DNA from: Pacificitalea manganoxidans
Lineage (GTDB): Bacteria > Pseudomonadota > Alphaproteobacteria > Rhodobacterales > Rhodobacteraceae
Direction of reading: 5' to 3'
DNA: 64,000 bases
NCBI RefSeq assembly: GCF_002504165.1
Contig: NZ_CP021404.1
Coordinates: 2,418,001 to 2,482,000 of the forward strand
Positions 5,057-15,134 of this stretch are shown here, one piece after another. Below the pieces are notes generated by a model. The model had not been told where the DNA came from. It ran no database searches and saw nothing but the letters and a program-made list of their open reading frames with translations. The position numbers were made by a program, and so were the translations under genes. The first letter of the stretch is position 1; each line of letters starts with the position of its first letter.

Positions 5057-5076
5057 TGTAAACCCGTATGTTTACA
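5057..5076. promoter_or_regulatory. TetR-type operator 2
   Basis: The second perfect copy of TGTAAAC-N6-GTTTACA, extended by one pair (A5056/T5077). It covers an in-frame ATG at 5068. This argues that the regulator starts translation downstream at the GTG at 5104. Confidence 0.8.
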
Positions 5077-5103
5077 TTTTTTGCGGCTAGATGGGGGATT
5101 GCG

Positions 5104-5700
5104 GTGAAGCTCACTGAAAAGAAACGAAAAGATATTCTGGACGCGGCGATTCAGGAGTTTCGGGAGCAGGGGTTCCCCGCCGCGCGGGTGAACCGCATCG
5201 CCGAATTGGCCGAAGTGTCCAAACGCACGCTCTACAAGCATTTCGAAAGCAAGGAGGTGCTGTTTGCCGCCATCACCGACATTCTGCTGGATCAGATCGC
5301 GGCCACGCCCCGCCTGCATTACGCGCCCGACGTGCCGCTAAAGGATCAATTGATCGCGGCGGTCGGCGACTACGTCGCTCATCTGTCGGGTGAGCAATAT
5401 ATGGGCCTTAACCGTCTGGTCATGTCAGAACTGCTGCGCGATCAGGATCTGGCGCAGGCGTTCTTTGCTAAGGCTGCGATGCAGGACGGCCCCATTCAGG
5501 CGCTAATCGGCGATGCGATGCAGTCCGGCGCGCTGCGGCAGGCCGAGCCGGGCTTTGCTGCAGGTCAGCTTCTGTCGATTGTAAAGCATTTCCTGATGTG
5601 GCCCGAGTTCCTGACCGGGGCCAAGGCCGAATTGGACGCCGCCGCCGTCATCGCCGATTGCGTCGATATGTTCCTGACCCATTACGCCGCACCGCGCTAA
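5104..5700 (+). CDS. TetR/AcrR-family transcriptional repressor
   Basis: The product has 198 residues from a GTG start preceded by GGGGGA. The N-terminal domain has the TetR helix-turn-helix pattern (ILDAAIQEFREQGFPAARVNRIAE, then VSKRTLYKHFESKEVLF). The C-terminal ligand domain resembles the TetR_C AcrR-like group. An ATG at 5068 would add twelve residues but lies inside the second operator, so I prefer 5104. The two operators fall just upstream, which predicts autorepression together with control of the divergent SDR gene. The inducer is unknown and may be the SDR substrate. Confidence 0.88.
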   Translation: MKLTEKKRKDILDAAIQEFREQGFPAARVNRIAELAEVSKRTLYKHFESKEVLFAAITDILLDQIAATPRLHYAPDVPLKDQLIAAVGDYVAHLSGEQYMGLNRLVMSELLRDQDLAQAFFAKAAMQDGPIQALIGDAMQSGALRQAEPGFAAGQLLSIVKHFLMWPEFLTGAKAELDAAAVIADCVDMFLTHYAAPR

Positions 5701-5856
5701 GACCGGGCACCGCCCCCGATCAGGCGCGCGACACCGTCGTGGACCGGGCTGCATGCGGGCAGACCCTGCTGGCACGACGTTTGTGTGACCAACTTGGCGG
5801 AGACACCGCGCGACCTACTTCCCCCAGAACCATGGTAGCGATAGCGGAGACCCCGA

Positions 5857-7026
5857 ATGACCCTTTGCATGAACCATTCAGTCACATGGCTTCTCGCTGG
5901 CAGTCTGCTCGCACCGACCTTTGCCGTCGCACATCCCGATCCGGCCCAGTTCGATCAAAGCGCGTTCATCGAAGCGCCGGAGACGGTGGATTGCACGCTG
6001 GATAACGGCACTGAGGCGCAATGTTACCAAGTCACCGTAGGCTATCTGCCCGATGATCTGGAGATCGGCCCATTCTGCCCGGCGACGCTAGATGATGCGG
6101 GGGGCATCTGGGAATGGACCGGCGAAAACGCGGGCCTTTACCGGGTCGACGGCGACTTCCTTCGGATGCTGGACGAACTGGGCTACCGGTTCTTTGACGA
6201 CGAGGGCAATGTGTATTCTGTCGATAACGCGACCGAACGGCCCACCGTGGACCACGCCTGTATCAATGTGTCGGCGGACGAAAGTGTCGAGATCACGATG
6301 CTACTGCCCGTAGACCCGATAAAGGCCGACACCCCGTCTGATTTGGGCACGGTGTCCAAGGTGGGTGTGGCGCTCGACGGTGTGCCGATCTTCTCGGATG
6401 CGCCCGAAATCCAAGTGACCGGCCACATGCCCGCGCTCGACACTTGCGGCGGGCATATCGATCCCGGCGGCTGGTATCATTGGCATAGCACCGCGACCGA
6501 CATCGAAACGACCTTTGCCGAGGAAAACGTCGCCGCCGACTGTGCACTGGCTCAAGACCCCAGCGCCCAATTTGGCTACGCCTTCGACGGGTTCGCCATC
6601 TATGGCAGCGCCGAGGCGGACGGCGCGGCCCCCACCGATCTGGACGCCTGCAACGGCCATGTCGGACCGGTCGCGGGGGGAGAAGAGGTCTATCACTATC
6701 ACGCCTCAAAGAAGTTCCCGACACTGCCGGCCTGCCTTGTCGGGGTTCAGGCGCAGAACAACTTCTCCACCACCGCGACCGCCGGCGTTGGCGCCACCCG
6801 CGCTGGCGAAGACGGGCGCAATGAGCCGCCGCGCCCCGGCGACGGGGCTCCGGGCGCAATGCCTCCCGGCTTTGAGCAGGCAGCCGAAACGCTTGGCGTC
6901 AGCGCAGAGGCGTTGCTGGAGGCGATGGAGGCCGCAGGCGGACCGAGCGCCGATCTGGCGGAGGTCGCCGCCGCATTGGGTCTCGACGAAGAAGCCCTAC
7001 GCGCAGCGATGCCTGCCCGCCCCTAA
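5857..7026 (+). CDS. YHYH domain-containing secreted protein, copy 1
   Basis: A 389-residue protein with an N-terminal signal peptide (cleavage probably after FAVA). The central part is a YHYH-family domain: a histidine-rich WYHWHS at about residue 206, a Cys-Gly-Gly-His motif just before it, CNGHVGP near 266 and YHYH at 279-282, with conserved cysteines around them. Such His/Cys clusters suggest metal binding, but no activity is established for the family. The last 55 residues hold two copies of a helical motif of the form AAxxLGVSxExLxxAM. The start has GGAG eight bases upstream. It sits 31 bases before a paralogue and is probably cotranscribed with it. Confidence 0.85.
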   Translation: MTLCMNHSVTWLLAGSLLAPTFAVAHPDPAQFDQSAFIEAPETVDCTLDNGTEAQCYQVTVGYLPDDLEIGPFCPATLDDAGGIWEWTGENAGLYRVDGDFLRMLDELGYRFFDDEGNVYSVDNATERPTVDHACINVSADESVEITMLLPVDPIKADTPSDLGTVSKVGVALDGVPIFSDAPEIQVTGHMPALDTCGGHIDPGGWYHWHSTATDIETTFAEENVAADCALAQDPSAQFGYAFDGFAIYGSAEADGAAPTDLDACNGHVGPVAGGEEVYHYHASKKFPTLPACLVGVQAQNNFSTTATAGVGATRAGEDGRNEPPRPGDGAPGAMPPGFEQAAETLGVSAEALLEAMEAAGGPSADLAEVAAALGLDEEALRAAMPARP

Positions 7027-7057
7027 CCAGACGCAGCAGCCACAGGAGACCACGAAC

Positions 7058-8077
7058 ATGTCAAGAACAGCGCTTTATACCACTGTCGCTGCAACGGCAG
7101 TGACCGCCGTTACGGTCCTGCAGGTGTCATCGGCACATGCTCAGAACGGCCCCGACAAACCCGTGGACACGAGCGCGGCGGTCGCCTCTGCCGAATGGGC
7201 CGACAACGTGACCATTACCGTCGACGATGCGGAACAGACCTTTACCTTCCAGTCCGACGGCATCCCCGATCACGGCTTTGCCGAGAAATATCTGATCCCC
7301 ACCGACCCAACGAACCAGCCGTTTGCCAACAAGCCCGCGGACTTCTTCGATGTGGTCAACTCCGCAGACTACTTCACGGAAACGCCGATCGACACCACCA
7401 TCACCACCGTGCCGACCTATACCGACGAGGCCACACAGACCTCCCTAGGGCGCATCGGCGTGGCGCTGAGCGGGGCGCAGCTGTTCAACGATTACGAAGA
7501 CATGGAGCGCGCCGTCGTCGCGCTGGACGATCAGGTGGTCCACGACCATGTGGCGTTTCTGGATGACTGTAACGGCCATACGCTCGTCGACGGGTCGAAC
7601 TATCACTACCACGGTATTCCGGTCTGTCTGACCAGCCGGCTGGAGGTCGAGGGGGAGCATTCGCGCATGCTCGGCGTTCTCGAAGACGGTTTTCCCGTCT
7701 ATGCAAATCAGGACATGAACGGCGCACCGATCGGCAACGACAGCCTCGACGAGTGCAGCGGCCATGTCGGCCCGACCCCGGAATTTCCGGACGGCACTTA
7801 CCATTATCATCTGACCGCCGACGAAGCGCCTTACATGATCGATTGCTATCATGGCGAGATCGAGCAGGCGTCCTTTGGAGGCCCCGACAACGGCCCGGAT
7901 TTCGCAGCTGCCGCGGAGCAACTGGGCGTCAGCGAGCAGATTTTAATGGAAGCGCTTGGCACCTCCATGCCCCCTGATTTCGCGGCTGCCGCAGCCCAGC
8001 TTGGCGTCAGTGAGGATGATCTGCGCGCGGCCCTGCCCGCACCTGCTCAGGGCCAAGGTCAGGCTGGCCGTCCATAA
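7058..8077 (+). CDS. YHYH domain-containing secreted protein, copy 2
   Basis: The product has 339 residues. The start at 7058 has AGGAG upstream and opens a clear signal peptide ending in SSAHA. It carries two full YHYH motifs, at residues 182-185 and 248-251, each preceded by a Cys-x-Gly-His element (CNGHTL, CSGHVGP). Like its neighbour it ends in two copies of a short helical repeat (FAAAAEQLGVSEQ, FAAAAAQLGVSED). The pair looks like an old tandem duplication that has diverged strongly outside the motifs. Both are predicted to be exported, and a joint role in metal or surface chemistry is a guess only. Confidence 0.85.
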   Translation: MSRTALYTTVAATAVTAVTVLQVSSAHAQNGPDKPVDTSAAVASAEWADNVTITVDDAEQTFTFQSDGIPDHGFAEKYLIPTDPTNQPFANKPADFFDVVNSADYFTETPIDTTITTVPTYTDEATQTSLGRIGVALSGAQLFNDYEDMERAVVALDDQVVHDHVAFLDDCNGHTLVDGSNYHYHGIPVCLTSRLEVEGEHSRMLGVLEDGFPVYANQDMNGAPIGNDSLDECSGHVGPTPEFPDGTYHYHLTADEAPYMIDCYHGEIEQASFGGPDNGPDFAAAAEQLGVSEQILMEALGTSMPPDFAAAAAQLGVSEDDLRAALPAPAQGQGQAGRP

Positions 8078-8087
8078 GGCTGCGGCT

Positions 8088-8118
8088 GGGGCGGTGTGAT
8101 CGTGAGCCACACCGCCCC
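8088..8118 (+). terminator. Terminator-like hairpin after the YHYH pair
   Basis: A perfect 10-bp stem GGGGCGGTGT / ACACCGCCCC, extendable by one G-C pair, begins 11 bases after the second YHYH stop. No T-run follows, as for several other terminators in this window. Just beyond it, at 8281-8338, are two further short hairpins before the HAD gene; I see no gene between 8078 and 8361. Confidence 0.55.
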
Positions 8119-8361
8119 GCTCGACACGTCCCGCAACGCCGAAGACAGGAACACCCGTGCCTTCGACGCCTCGGGCTATCGCAAGGCTGACGCTGATACG
8201 AAGGGCCGCCTACCGATGGGTTACGACGAGGCAAAGTTGATCTTAGGCTCTGACCTTCGGCGCTGGTCATATGCCGCCATGCAACCCCATGCCCATTCAC
8301 GGGGTTGCGACAGGGCGGAGGTCGCGCATAGCCTCCGCTGATCTCAAAGGAACGGACCCCC

Positions 8362-9054
8362 ATGCCGGATCACGCCCCCGTCACGACCATCGTCTTCGAC
8401 GTTAACGAAACCCTGCTGGACATAACCACGCTTGAGCCGCTGTTCGCTCGACTGTTCGGGTCCGGCGAGATGCTGCGCGAATGGTTTCCGGAATTGATCC
8501 TCTACTCGCAGACCCTGACCCTCTCGGATCGCTACGTCCCGTTCGGGGATCTTGCCGCCGGCGTGTTGCGCATGGTCGGGCGGAACAAGCAGGTCACCAT
8601 CACCGATGACGACGTCGCCGAGCTGAAGGGCTTGATTGGATCGATGCCCGCTTACCCGGACGTAAAACCGGCGTTAAAGGCGCTGCGCGACGCTGGTTTC
8701 ACGCTTGTCACGCTGACCAACTCCGCGCCATCCCACTCCCCCACGCCATTGGAGAAGGCCGGGATTTCCGAATTCTTTGATCGAAGCTTCAGCGTCGCAG
8801 AGACCGGCAAGTTCAAACCCCATCCCGCGACCTATGAATTGGTGGCGCAGGAAATGGGCGTCACGGGGGCGTCGCTCTGCATGGTCGCCTGCCATCTATG
8901 GGATACAATCGGTGCGCAATCCGTGGGGTGGAAAGGTGCCTTCATCGGGCGGCCGAACAATTCAATCCTCGACGCGCCGGGTGTGCCGAAGCCGGATTTT
9001 TGCGCAACCGATCTTACCGATCTGGCGGACCAGATCCGCGCAGCCGGGTCATGA
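8362..9054 (+). CDS. HAD hydrolase, type II haloacid dehalogenase-like
   Basis: A 230-residue HAD-superfamily enzyme. The nucleophile is Asp13 in FDVNETLLD, motif II is TLTNSAPSH, and the conserved lysine is in GKFKPHPATY. The late motif CHLWDTIGAQSVGWKGAFIGR matches the type II (S)-2-haloacid dehalogenase branch. Such enzymes remove chloride from 2-haloacids, but many homologues have unknown substrates. The second motif-I residue pair differs from the DAYGT of proven dehalogenases, so activity is uncertain. AAAGGAAC precedes the ATG. It converges on a small membrane protein gene only 8 bases away. Confidence 0.8.
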   Translation: MPDHAPVTTIVFDVNETLLDITTLEPLFARLFGSGEMLREWFPELILYSQTLTLSDRYVPFGDLAAGVLRMVGRNKQVTITDDDVAELKGLIGSMPAYPDVKPALKALRDAGFTLVTLTNSAPSHSPTPLEKAGISEFFDRSFSVAETGKFKPHPATYELVAQEMGVTGASLCMVACHLWDTIGAQSVGWKGAFIGRPNNSILDAPGVPKPDFCATDLTDLADQIRAAGS

Positions 9055-12107: not shown

Positions 12108-12271
12108 GGGAAACCTCGCAAGCCGAAAGAACAGCGCGGGCGTGACGCTCGGCCATCGCCGCGCCCGTGAAACGCTTGTCCCCGTCCTGCCCCCGAACGG
12201 CAAGCGCCGATCGGTATAAATCCCGTGACCGCAAGTCATTGCTGCAAGGGAACCCCAATCCGCGCCTCAGC

Positions 12272-12300
12272 TTGACAGCCCGTTTTCGCAGCGCTACGAA
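12272..12300 (+). promoter_or_regulatory. Sigma-70 promoter of the TRAP operon
   Basis: A perfect TTGACA (12272-12277), a 17-base spacer and TACGAA (12295-12300) lie 38 bases before the DctP start codon. This is the best housekeeping promoter match I found in the window. Confidence 0.65.
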
Positions 12301-12337
12301 TCGCGGCGGGAGTTTTAGTGTTTCAGGGAGGAAAGTT

Positions 12338-13336
12338 ATGTTCAGCAGGGTTTTGATCGCAGGTCTCATCGCATCTGCACCGGCACTTGCCGCAGCGGAT
12401 TCGCTACGGTTCGGGCACATTCAGGCGCCGGGCTCGCCCGCGGCCATGGGCGCGCAGAAGCTCGCCGATCTGGCCGAGGAATATTCGGGGGGCGATCTCA
12501 CCATCCGGATTTACCCGTCGGCGCAGTTAGGCGACGTGCGCAACCTTGTCGGATCTGTCAAAACCGGGGCGCTCGACATGGCGGAGGGGACGTTTCCGCT
12601 GCTGGCCGACGTGGTGCCCGAATATAACGTCTACAACGCCGGATATTTCTATAGCGACTGGTCCCAGTTGGACCGCATCGTGCATGGGGAAGAATTCGGT
12701 CAGGTCTGGGATACCCGGCTGGCCGAAGAAACCGGCATGCAGATCATCGGCGCCTTTTACTACGGGTCGCGCAACCTGACGACCAACGGCGTGGCCGCGA
12801 AATCGCCCGCCGATCTGGAAGGCCGCAAGATCCGCTCCGTTCCCAATGAGATGTCGCTGGCCGTGGTCACTGGCCTTGGCGCGCAGCCAACCCCGGTGCC
12901 CTTCGCCGATCTGTTTCAGGCCCTGAGCCAAGGTGTGGTCGACGGGCAGGAAAACCCCCTGCCCACCATCATGGCCGAGAAGTTCTACGAGGTGCAGGAC
13001 ACGTTGGTTTTGACCAACCACCAGCTTATCGCGCTGCCGTGGATCATCAATGATCGCGCCTTCGAAGGGCTGACCCCGGAAAATCAGGACGCCCTTCTGA
13101 AAGCCGCCACCGAAGCAGCGGAATATGCCACCAACCTCACCATCGAAGAGGAAAAAACGCTGGCCGAACGTCTGGGAGCCGAGGGCATGACCGTCGTCAC
13201 TGTCGAGGACGGCATCGACGACGCGGCCTTCCGCAGCGCGGTTCAGGCCGAGGTCGAAACCCGCTTCGAGGGCAAGATCTGGCCCGAAGGTCTAAGCGAT
13301 CAAGTGCGGCAGGCTCTCGGCACTGACGGAAGCTAA
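12338..13336 (+). CDS. TRAP transporter substrate-binding protein, DctP family
   Basis: A 332-residue periplasmic solute receptor. A signal peptide ends near AAADS. The mature part begins LRFGHIQAPGSPAAMGAQKLAD, the usual DctP opening, and contains GRKIRSVPNEM, whose arginine normally binds the carboxylate of the ligand. AGGGAGGAAAG stands before the ATG. It heads a three-gene operon with the small and large permeases. Substrates of this family are organic acids such as C4-dicarboxylates or keto acids; the specific ligand is not evident. Confidence 0.93.
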   Translation: MFSRVLIAGLIASAPALAAADSLRFGHIQAPGSPAAMGAQKLADLAEEYSGGDLTIRIYPSAQLGDVRNLVGSVKTGALDMAEGTFPLLADVVPEYNVYNAGYFYSDWSQLDRIVHGEEFGQVWDTRLAEETGMQIIGAFYYGSRNLTTNGVAAKSPADLEGRKIRSVPNEMSLAVVTGLGAQPTPVPFADLFQALSQGVVDGQENPLPTIMAEKFYEVQDTLVLTNHQLIALPWIINDRAFEGLTPENQDALLKAATEAAEYATNLTIEEEKTLAERLGAEGMTVVTVEDGIDDAAFRSAVQAEVETRFEGKIWPEGLSDQVRQALGTDGS

Positions 13337-13341
13337 ATTCG

Positions 13342-13845
13342 ATGCAGTCTGATGCGCCTGACGGCACGGGATGGCGGCGCGTTGCCGCCAACCCGGAAAT
13401 CGCCGTGTCGATGTTGCTGCTCATCGCGGTGGCGGGCATCTCCAGCTTGCAAGTGGTGATGCGCTACGTCTTCAACGCCGCTCTGCCCTGGACCGAGGAA
13501 ATCTCGGGCATGGCGCTGGTCTGGATGACCTTCCTCGGGGCTGTGGGGCTTGCGCGGCTCAATCTGCATGCCCGGGTCGAGATCCTGTCGGAGATGGCGG
13601 CGGGCCGGACGTGGTACGAAGTGCTGGAGATTGCACTGGATCTGCTCGGCATCGCGTTTCTGGTCTGCGTCGTCATCGGCGGCACGGATCTTGTAGGCCA
13701 GTTGAGCCATGAGCGCACGCCCGCCCTGCGTTTGCCAATAACGTATCAGGTAGTGGCCATCCCCCTGTCCGCCGGACTTATCGCCCTGTTCATGGCGCTG
13801 CGCGTCATTCGCCGGATTGCCGGGATCGCTGGGAGACCGATGTGA
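13342..13845 (+). CDS. TRAP transporter small permease (DctQ family)
   Basis: A 167-residue membrane protein with four hydrophobic segments. It has the family motif of a membrane-edge tryptophan and glutamates (LPWTEEISGMALVWMTFLG) after the first helix pair. It couples to the large permease to form the Na+-driven channel unit. It starts 5 bases after the receptor gene and overlaps the next gene by 4 bases, so the three are translationally linked. Confidence 0.93.
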   Translation: MQSDAPDGTGWRRVAANPEIAVSMLLLIAVAGISSLQVVMRYVFNAALPWTEEISGMALVWMTFLGAVGLARLNLHARVEILSEMAAGRTWYEVLEIALDLLGIAFLVCVVIGGTDLVGQLSHERTPALRLPITYQVVAIPLSAGLIALFMALRVIRRIAGIAGRPM

Positions 13846-15134
13846 ACCTAGAACTTCTGCTTATTCTTCTCATCGGGGTCAGCCTGATCGTCATTATGCT
13901 GGGCATGCCCGTGGCGCTGGCGCTTGGCGGGTGCGCCGTGATCTACCTGCTTGCCGAAGGCTTCCCCCTGACCCAGACGGCGATGGAATTGGCGTTCTCC
14001 ATCGATAAGTTCACCATGCTGGCCATTCCGCTGTTCATGCTGGCGGGCAGCCTGATGAACGCGGCACGGATCACCGACCGCATCTTTGATTTCGCGGCTT
14101 CCATCGTCGGGCGGGTGCCGGGCGGGCTGGGACATGTGAATGTCATCAACAGCCTCGTGTTTGCCGGGATGTCAGGCTCCGCTCTGGCCGATGTGGCAAG
14201 CCTTGGGCCGATGCAGGTCCGCGCGATGAAGAAGCATGGCTATGATGAAAAGCTGGCCATCGGCATCACGCTGGCCTCCGCCTCGATCGGGCCGATCCTG
14301 CCGCCAAGCATCCCGCTCGTCATGTTCGGCATCATCGCGCAGGTGTCGATCACCCAGCTGTTTCTGGGCGGTGTGCTGCCCGCATTCGTGATCGCGGGCT
14401 GTTTGATGATCTACATCTACATCGTGGCGCGCGGTCGTGGGTATGTCTCGGCGGATCCGTTCAGCCTGCGCACCGTGGCGCGGACATTTCTGCGGGCCGC
14501 CCCGCCGATGCTAACGCCCGTAATCATCGTGGGCGGCATGACGATGGGGATTTTCAGCCCGACCGAAGCCGCGACCGTCGCCGTCCTGTATGCGTTGTTC
14601 TTGGGCGGGGTGATCTACCGTGAACTGACCTTCAAGGCGGCGCTCGATGCGTTGTTCGAGGTGGCCTCCGCCTCCGCGAAGCTGTTGTTCATCATCGCCA
14701 ACGCGGTGTTGTTCGGTTGGGTTCTCACCATCGGCAATATCCCCCAGACCGCCGCCACTGCGATCTCCACGACCTTCGAGTCGCCGAGCATGTTCATCCT
14801 GCTGACGCTGGTGTCGTTACTGATCCTTGGCGCGATCATCGAAAATGCGATCCTGCTGCTGATCCTCGCGCCGATGCTGGTGGGGGTGGGCACGGAAACA
14901 TTCGGGCTGGACCCAGTGCATCTGGGCGTGACGATGGTGTTCTGCATCATGATCGGGCAATACACGCCGCCGCTGGGGCTGTCGCTTTTCCTGATGAAGG
15001 ATCTGACCGGGGTGCCTTTTGGTCGGGTCTGCGCCGCTGTCGCGCCGTTCCTGATCCCGCTGATCGCGGCACTCCTGATCATGGCCTATGTGCCGCAGGT
15101 GGTGACATGGCTGCCGCGGACGCTGGGCTACTGA
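13842..15134 (+). CDS. TRAP transporter large permease (DctM family)
   Basis: A 430-residue membrane protein of normal DctM length with about twelve helices. The conserved loop FAGMSGSALADVASLG and the pattern SASIGPILPPSIPLVMFG mark the ion and substrate pathway. Translation begins at a GTG that overlaps the stop of dctQ in GTGA. A strong intrinsic terminator follows, so the operon ends here. Confidence 0.95.
   Translation: MNLELLLILLIGVSLIVIMLGMPVALALGGCAVIYLLAEGFPLTQTAMELAFSIDKFTMLAIPLFMLAGSLMNAARITDRIFDFAASIVGRVPGGLGHVNVINSLVFAGMSGSALADVASLGPMQVRAMKKHGYDEKLAIGITLASASIGPILPPSIPLVMFGIIAQVSITQLFLGGVLPAFVIAGCLMIYIYIVARGRGYVSADPFSLRTVARTFLRAAPPMLTPVIIVGGMTMGIFSPTEAATVAVLYALFLGGVIYRELTFKAALDALFEVASASAKLLFIIANAVLFGWVLTIGNIPQTAATAISTTFESPSMFILLTLVSLLILGAIIENAILLLILAPMLVGVGTETFGLDPVHLGVTMVFCIMIGQYTPPLGLSLFLMKDLTGVPFGRVCAAVAPFLIPLIAALLIMAYVPQVVTWLPRTLGY

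Follow-up and report, generated by a model that had tools for sequence, protein, structure and literature searches.

The adjacent genes A and B of Pacificitalea manganoxidans encode two YHYH-family (PF14240) proteins, in which the core is an internal duplication with strictly conserved histidine and aspartate residues and the C-terminus is a two-copy helical tail. Within the samples searched, this tail was restricted to YHYH proteins, and we count this family-restricted tail as new, together with the clean internal duplication and the second motif set that is retained in A and B. The two genes lie on the same (plus) strand of the analysed stretch of 64,000 nucleotides (the window), separated by a gap of 31 nt (Table 1). 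The original prediction had placed two exported-looking proteins here; both reading frames were confirmed, and their hydrophobic starts look signal-peptide-like by eye, which suggests that the products are exported. From the layout, we infer a short operon comprising A and B. The plus strand across 5600-8450 contained no terminator-like site, and the TetR-family regulator encoded upstream is a possible regulator of the pair. Elsewhere in the window, the genes at 12167-15134 have the look of a TRAP transporter (named by eye).

Table 1. Features of the A-B region, in window coordinates
Feature	Position	Strand	Evidence or remark
TetR-family regulator, AefR-like C-terminal domain, upstream of the pair	5068..5700	+	Pfam
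Gene A, encoding a probably exported YHYH protein of subfamily A (389 aa plus stop)	5857..7026	+	PF14240 E 3.1e-16
Gene A putative signal peptide, residues 1-25, ...APTFAVA/HPDP	5857..5931	+	by eye
Gene A N-terminal region, four invariant Cys (46, 56, 74, 135)	5932..6306	+	38/38 rows per Cys; no Pfam match of its own
Gene A core, first half, GVALDGVPIF...LDTCGGH...GGWYHWH	6349..6531	+	
Gene A core, second half, GYAFDGFAIYG...LDACNGH...VYHYH...C	6568..6744	+	
Gene A tail, unit 1	6868..6927	+	
Gene A tail, unit 2	6952..7011	+	
AGGAG, ribosome-binding-site-like, in the 31-nt gap ahead of gene B	7044..7048	+	read from sequence
Gene B, encoding a probably exported YHYH protein of subfamily B (339 aa plus stop)	7058..8077	+	PF14240 E 3.8e-23; ATG start at 7058
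Gene B putative signal peptide, residues 1-28, ...VSSAHA/QNGP	7058..7141	+	by eye
Gene B core, first half, GVALSGAQLF...LDDCNGH...NYHYH...C	7448..7627	+	
Gene B core, second half, GVLEDGFPVY...LDECSGH...TYHYH...C	7664..7855	+	
Gene B tail, unit 1	7898..7957	+	
Gene B tail, unit 2	7976..8035	+	
Haloacid dehalogenase type II, downstream of the pair	8362-9054		TIGR01428, 163.3 bits, cut-off 125.4

Genes A and B matched PF14240 with 60.4 and 82.9 bits, respectively, both above the curated cut-off of 25. The YHYH-type motif and the His3-Asp set conserved in this family were found in both proteins, the first motif of A being YHWH. An NCBIfam scan of the two proteins gave nothing above the cut-off. 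The relatives of B, with 45-72% identity, were found mostly in Alphaproteobacteria, but also in several actinobacterial MAGs and in one labelled Trueperaceae, and those of A in alpha- and gammaproteobacteria. Among 198 genomes of the bacterial family to which the organism belongs, 17 (its own included) matched B or another YHYH protein, and PF14240 was detected in 28 of 398 genomes sampled across the phylum. The genome itself has a third YHYH gene, which is tail-less and lies on another contig.

The YHYH-type motifs are WYHWH and YHYH in A, and YHYH twice in B, and each of the four is preceded by LDxCxGH. Thus, the pairing of YHYH or WYHWH with Cys-x-Gly-His elements in the original prediction was correct, except that WYHWH occurs in A only. 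The core is an internal duplication, in which LDxCxGH...YHxH is found twice. When the two halves were aligned with each other by hhalign, a probability of 98, an E-value of 1.9e-13 and a score of 65.5 were obtained, and none of 60 column-shuffled controls was as good (best score 22.3). The core motifs and the His/Asp set are common to A, B and PF14240. On the other hand, A and B keep a second full CxGH/YHYH set that is missing from some PF14240 members, such as L001 (...LDQCNGMIQDGVYGYV), and their C-terminal two-hairpin tail lies outside the PF14240 match.

A wide alignment of the core, consisting of 48 rows (25 B, 11 A and 12 other), showed that D169, H174, Y182, H183, H185, D210, D231, Y248, Y250 and H251 of B are invariant in 48/48 rows. 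H236 and H249 were invariant in all 36 A and B rows and were present in 7 of the 12 others, H236 being absent from 5 of these 12. The residues of A equivalent to the invariant His/Asp set of B were conserved in 38/38 type-A rows; together with 25/25 for B, this conservation among orthologues agrees with what the original prediction required of the histidines. The Asp of the DG(F/V) loop was present in the first half of 32 and in the second half of all 38 type-A rows. In type B it was found in the second half only, the first half having Ser in 21 of 25 rows. From this distribution, A may have two equivalent metal sites, while in B one site may be complete and the other altered. Metal binding by A and B is likely, the strict conservation of the histidines and aspartates being what a metal site would need. 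The cysteines, of which eight are invariant in type A (38/38 rows), are more likely to form disulfides than to serve as ligands, which fits an oxidising compartment.

The surroundings of YHYH genes in other genomes provide some metal context. A protein of about 170 aa with conserved histidines, exported or membrane-anchored by eye, is encoded directly downstream of B in 13 of the 27 B-anchored loci (L035-L039, L041, L042, L044-L047, L050 and L051), and it also occurs near YHYH genes in two Psychromonas loci. Its invariant positions comprise HxH, GH-x-H (in GHxHxYxN) and one further H-x-x-W position. When one or two members were scanned, no Pfam or NCBIfam family exceeded the cut-off. Judging from these histidines, the protein is a possible metal-binding partner of B. 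A search of the window's own genome, run without a positive control, gave no match to it at E 1. SCO1/SenC is encoded about 0.5 kb downstream of YHYH in 4/4 Bacteroidota loci (L086, L087, L099 and L105; Pfam on one), and HupE/UreJ directly downstream of a YHYH gene on a Deinococcus plasmid (L185, 5467-6561). SCO1 is associated with copper, HupE/UreJ with nickel or cobalt, and His/Met-rich stretches with copper.

The other neighbours were more diverse. A small Cys protein (EAxxAC...C.F...G.C...AC.P) lies beside YHYH in eight loci (L043, L063, L065, L074, L082, L088, L096 and L111), where a two-component system is often encoded close by; in two other loci the small protein is joined to the C-terminal end of YHYH (reading frames L154:1009-2148 and L155:1078-2241). 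YHYH cores therefore take different C-terminal modules. PEBP-family genes were observed beside tail-less YHYH genes of roseobacters, by annotation in L187 (4298-4939), by Pfam in L039 and by clustering in L051, L080 and L096. Neighbouring reading frames were chosen greedily, the longest ORF first, and some of them are false. With this rule, the next-upstream frames of type A (Pfam, n=50) contained MarR six times, LysR three times and TetR twice, and the immediate type-A neighbours revealed no shared pathway. No family occurred in more than two of 37 frames upstream of B (26 nearest and 11 second), or in more than three of the 48 scanned among 65 nearest downstream frames, the 12 His-bearing partner frames and five others (four long, one short) being left out.

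With the His-bearing neighbour of B, SCO1/SenC and HupE/UreJ as metal context, we favour a role in metal handling, i.e., capture or delivery, of copper in the first place and zinc in the second, which we would put somewhat ahead of catalysis. YHYH is a family already known, and the published hydrolase and zinc-site readings are predictions. The original prediction, that no function is established for this pairing, agrees with the open PMC literature on YHYH/PF14240, in which no experimentally established function was found, but it overlooked both the named Pfam family and the published prediction. PMC7824862 predicts, for jumbo phages, a Zn site formed by one Asp and three His residues, as well as a tail-associated metal-dependent hydrolase. 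The YHYH cores could accordingly be zinc-dependent hydrolases, acting for example on peptidoglycan or polysaccharide, with the tail positioning them at the substrate or within a complex; we consider this possible, if rather unlikely. The invariance of the His3-Asp set in the 48-row alignment is in its favour, and so are the viral relatives of B. Foldseek matched the B model to YHYH domains of cyanophage S-RIM14 and Mimiviridae (best E 6.1e-11, probability 1.00), although the TM-score was only 0.40 over the whole model and the viral YHYH proteins listed have at least 526 residues. By sequence, B, and not A, matched six phage families, of which two are named baseplate wedge and three virion structural, while tblastn with B found no phage record. 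The published reading is, however, a prediction, the neighbouring genes give no pointer to wall or polysaccharide turnover, and solved structures offered no relative: PDB sequences contained none of A or B at E 1, the 48-row profile gave a single chance-level match to them (best E 0.74), and Foldseek with the whole A and B models found no PDB chain at E 0.001, a result that is uninformative on the novelty of the fold.

Phage proteins also bear on a second alternative, in which the cores are binding or adhesion modules for carbohydrate or surface recognition and the metal ions are structural. PMC7029224 places YHYH among those domains of phage structural proteins that serve host recognition and carbohydrate binding, and fusions of YHYH to lectin domains are noted in PMC7824862. 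Pfam showed no lectin or fibre parts in A and B, which are short proteins, and we regard such a role for them as improbable.

Returning to the proteins that we favour as metal handlers, we found that their tails consist of two copies of a 20-residue unit, GFEQAAETLGVSAEALLEAM and DLAEVAAALGLDEEALRAAM in A (28 residues from start to start) and DFAAAAEQLGVSEQILMEAL and DFAAAAAQLGVSEDDLRAAL in B (26 residues). The two-copy C-terminal motif was thus predicted correctly for both proteins, with a unit of about 20 rather than about 22 residues. In six pairings of the copies (BLOSUM62, 20,000 shuffles each), 0 to 20 shuffles reached the observed score. A tail profile made without the window rows retrieved the A and B reading frames from the 895 of the window with E-values of 3.1e-21 and 1.2e-18, the next being 0.041. 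As anticipated, the tail is a small helical module in the AlphaFold2 models, which show four C-terminal helices (two helix hairpins) in both proteins. The ten-residue pLDDT means, between 80 and 97, were 95, 91, 84, 96 and 80 for A and 93, 96, 88, 97 and 81 for B. The unit, AAxxLGVSxxxLxxAL, resembles the core of helix-turn-helix families (HTH_8, NirDL-like HTH and others) with weak matches; the best for the B tail alone was 24.3 bits against a cut-off of 27, and those for whole A and B were also below the curated cut-offs. In contrast to these families, the tail of A and B is formed by two short hairpins ending an exported-type protein. Among solved structures (VIA-align), the best match of A was a MYB domain (Z 4.0 over 46 residues) and that of B an enzyme (Z 3.0).

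Two tail units were carried by 53 of 55 sequences of type A and by 24 of 32 of type B, counted from 117 rows that include repeats of one genome (e.g. L008 and L050). Thus, the repeats, like the histidines, are conserved among orthologues. Of the eight tail-less B rows, L008 and L050 represent one gene whose tail lies in a different frame, and L048 and L059 stop at a contig end; one of the two tail-less A rows, L088, is a split gene. Most PF14240 proteins seen were tail-less. In 28 of 30 rows of other type the tail was absent, the two exceptions being downstream pieces of split A or B genes (L050 and L088), and it was found in 0/31 rows of a second PF14240 set, where one row (L157) has it in another frame. 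The tail is therefore dispensable for the general role of the core. The split genes run over two frames with the tail in the second piece (L050:7956-9000, the L008 gene, and L088:7461-8744), by a genuine break or a sequencing error.

The original prediction proposed a search for the C-terminal repeat in other exported proteins, and this search led back to YHYH proteins. In the genome of the window, A and B were detected with E-values of 6e-21 and 4e-19; eight further matches were weak (E 0.02 to 0.9) and resemble unrelated enzymes and regulators. Across the class, 9 of 289 genomes had a match at E 0.001. Those in the own genome, G407 and G461 were YHYH proteins, the latter two being tailed members of a third lineage, and those in the other six resemble sigma factors and helix-turn-helix regulators by eye. 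Across the phylum, 4 of 398 genomes had one at E 1e-4: the own genome, G120 (YHYH), G209 (sigma-like) and G690 (AraC-like by eye). In the first 114 loci, 17 non-YHYH reading frames gave weak tail matches (best E 0.047, judged by score), and a non-YHYH frame of L132 that also passes the YHYH profile at E < 1 was taken as chance. No unrelated exported protein with the tail was found in the own genome, the 289 class genomes or the 398 phylum genomes, with part of the first-look candidates scored. These searches weigh against the possibility that the tail serves a secretion route, as a C-terminal signal for sorting or anchoring, and not docking. In favour of such a signal, 3 to 15 residues separate the end of unit 2 from the C-terminus in 58/58 sequences with two parsed units (79 tailed), and the tail is present on several YHYH lineages; a sorting signal should, however, also be carried by unrelated cargo, and the non-YHYH matches resemble cytoplasmic regulators and enzymes by eye. 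We consider a sorting signal very unlikely.

A tree of the core was built from 98 cores, which remained of 144 usable ones (156 distinct sequences) once near-copies had been removed; some rows are pieces of one gene. The presence of the tail required eight changes on this tree, at least four of them forced by starred branches. Counting the frame-shifted L008 as tailed reduced the changes to seven, with at least four still forced, and setting aside three tail-less A/B rows and the unrelated row L024_401 reduced them to four. The tail was thus gained, or lost, more than once.

The original prediction described the two proteins as a tandem pair; that this pairing is a unit in itself was not supported. 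A was beside B in only one (L048) of 80 other loci, some of which are cut by contig ends, so that a conserved A-B pairing as a rule was rejected, and in G006 and G127 both genes are present on different contigs. At least two YHYH reading frames were found in 19 of the 80 loci, L088 having a gene split in two and another YHYH gene. The tandem arrangement of A and B looks incidental. A recent tandem duplication was likewise ruled out by the identity of 30% over 238 columns and by the separate starred clades of 34 rows and 13 rows, which make A and B two separately supported subfamilies; this tree was made by a quick method and its branches are long, so that the stars are less trustworthy. In the window pair, like copies of the tail (e.g. 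copy 1 of A and copy 1 of B) share 11/20 identities each. This like-with-like match is not general across the family (A against B, 13/37 and 19/37; B against A, 10/17 and 7/17), and we do not claim transfer of the tail as a block.

We propose that A and B are made from a short operon as two exported, periplasmic YHYH proteins, in which each core would comprise two related halves, each supplying LDxCxGH and YHxH. The invariant His residues of one half and the Asp of the DG(F/V) loop would make up a His3-Asp metal site, a geometry deduced from conservation, and the conserved cysteines would probably form disulfides. A flexible Gly/Pro-rich linker would carry the compact, helix-turn-helix-like module of four helices in two hairpins. 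A periplasmic tail would not be a DNA binder, and most likely it would dock the core, either to a partner or to a second YHYH protein with a tail. More specifically, the tail may be a dedicated docking tag in the periplasm, common to several YHYH lineages that separated long ago, whose different metal-site cores would share one partner or assemble with each other, with A and B in a mixed complex; we offer this as a doubtful suggestion. The account as a whole, comprising the operon, the duplicated metal-site cores, the docking tail and the role in metal handling, is a tentative one, for which our confidence falls just short of even.

YHYH proteins are widespread, in genomes across the phylum, diatoms, phages and giant viruses, with no established function found; PMC11992049 lists PF14240 among diatom-prevalent families that are more abundant in temperate waters. 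With their duplicated core, strictly conserved sites and family-specific tail, A and B are compact, testable proteins of this family.
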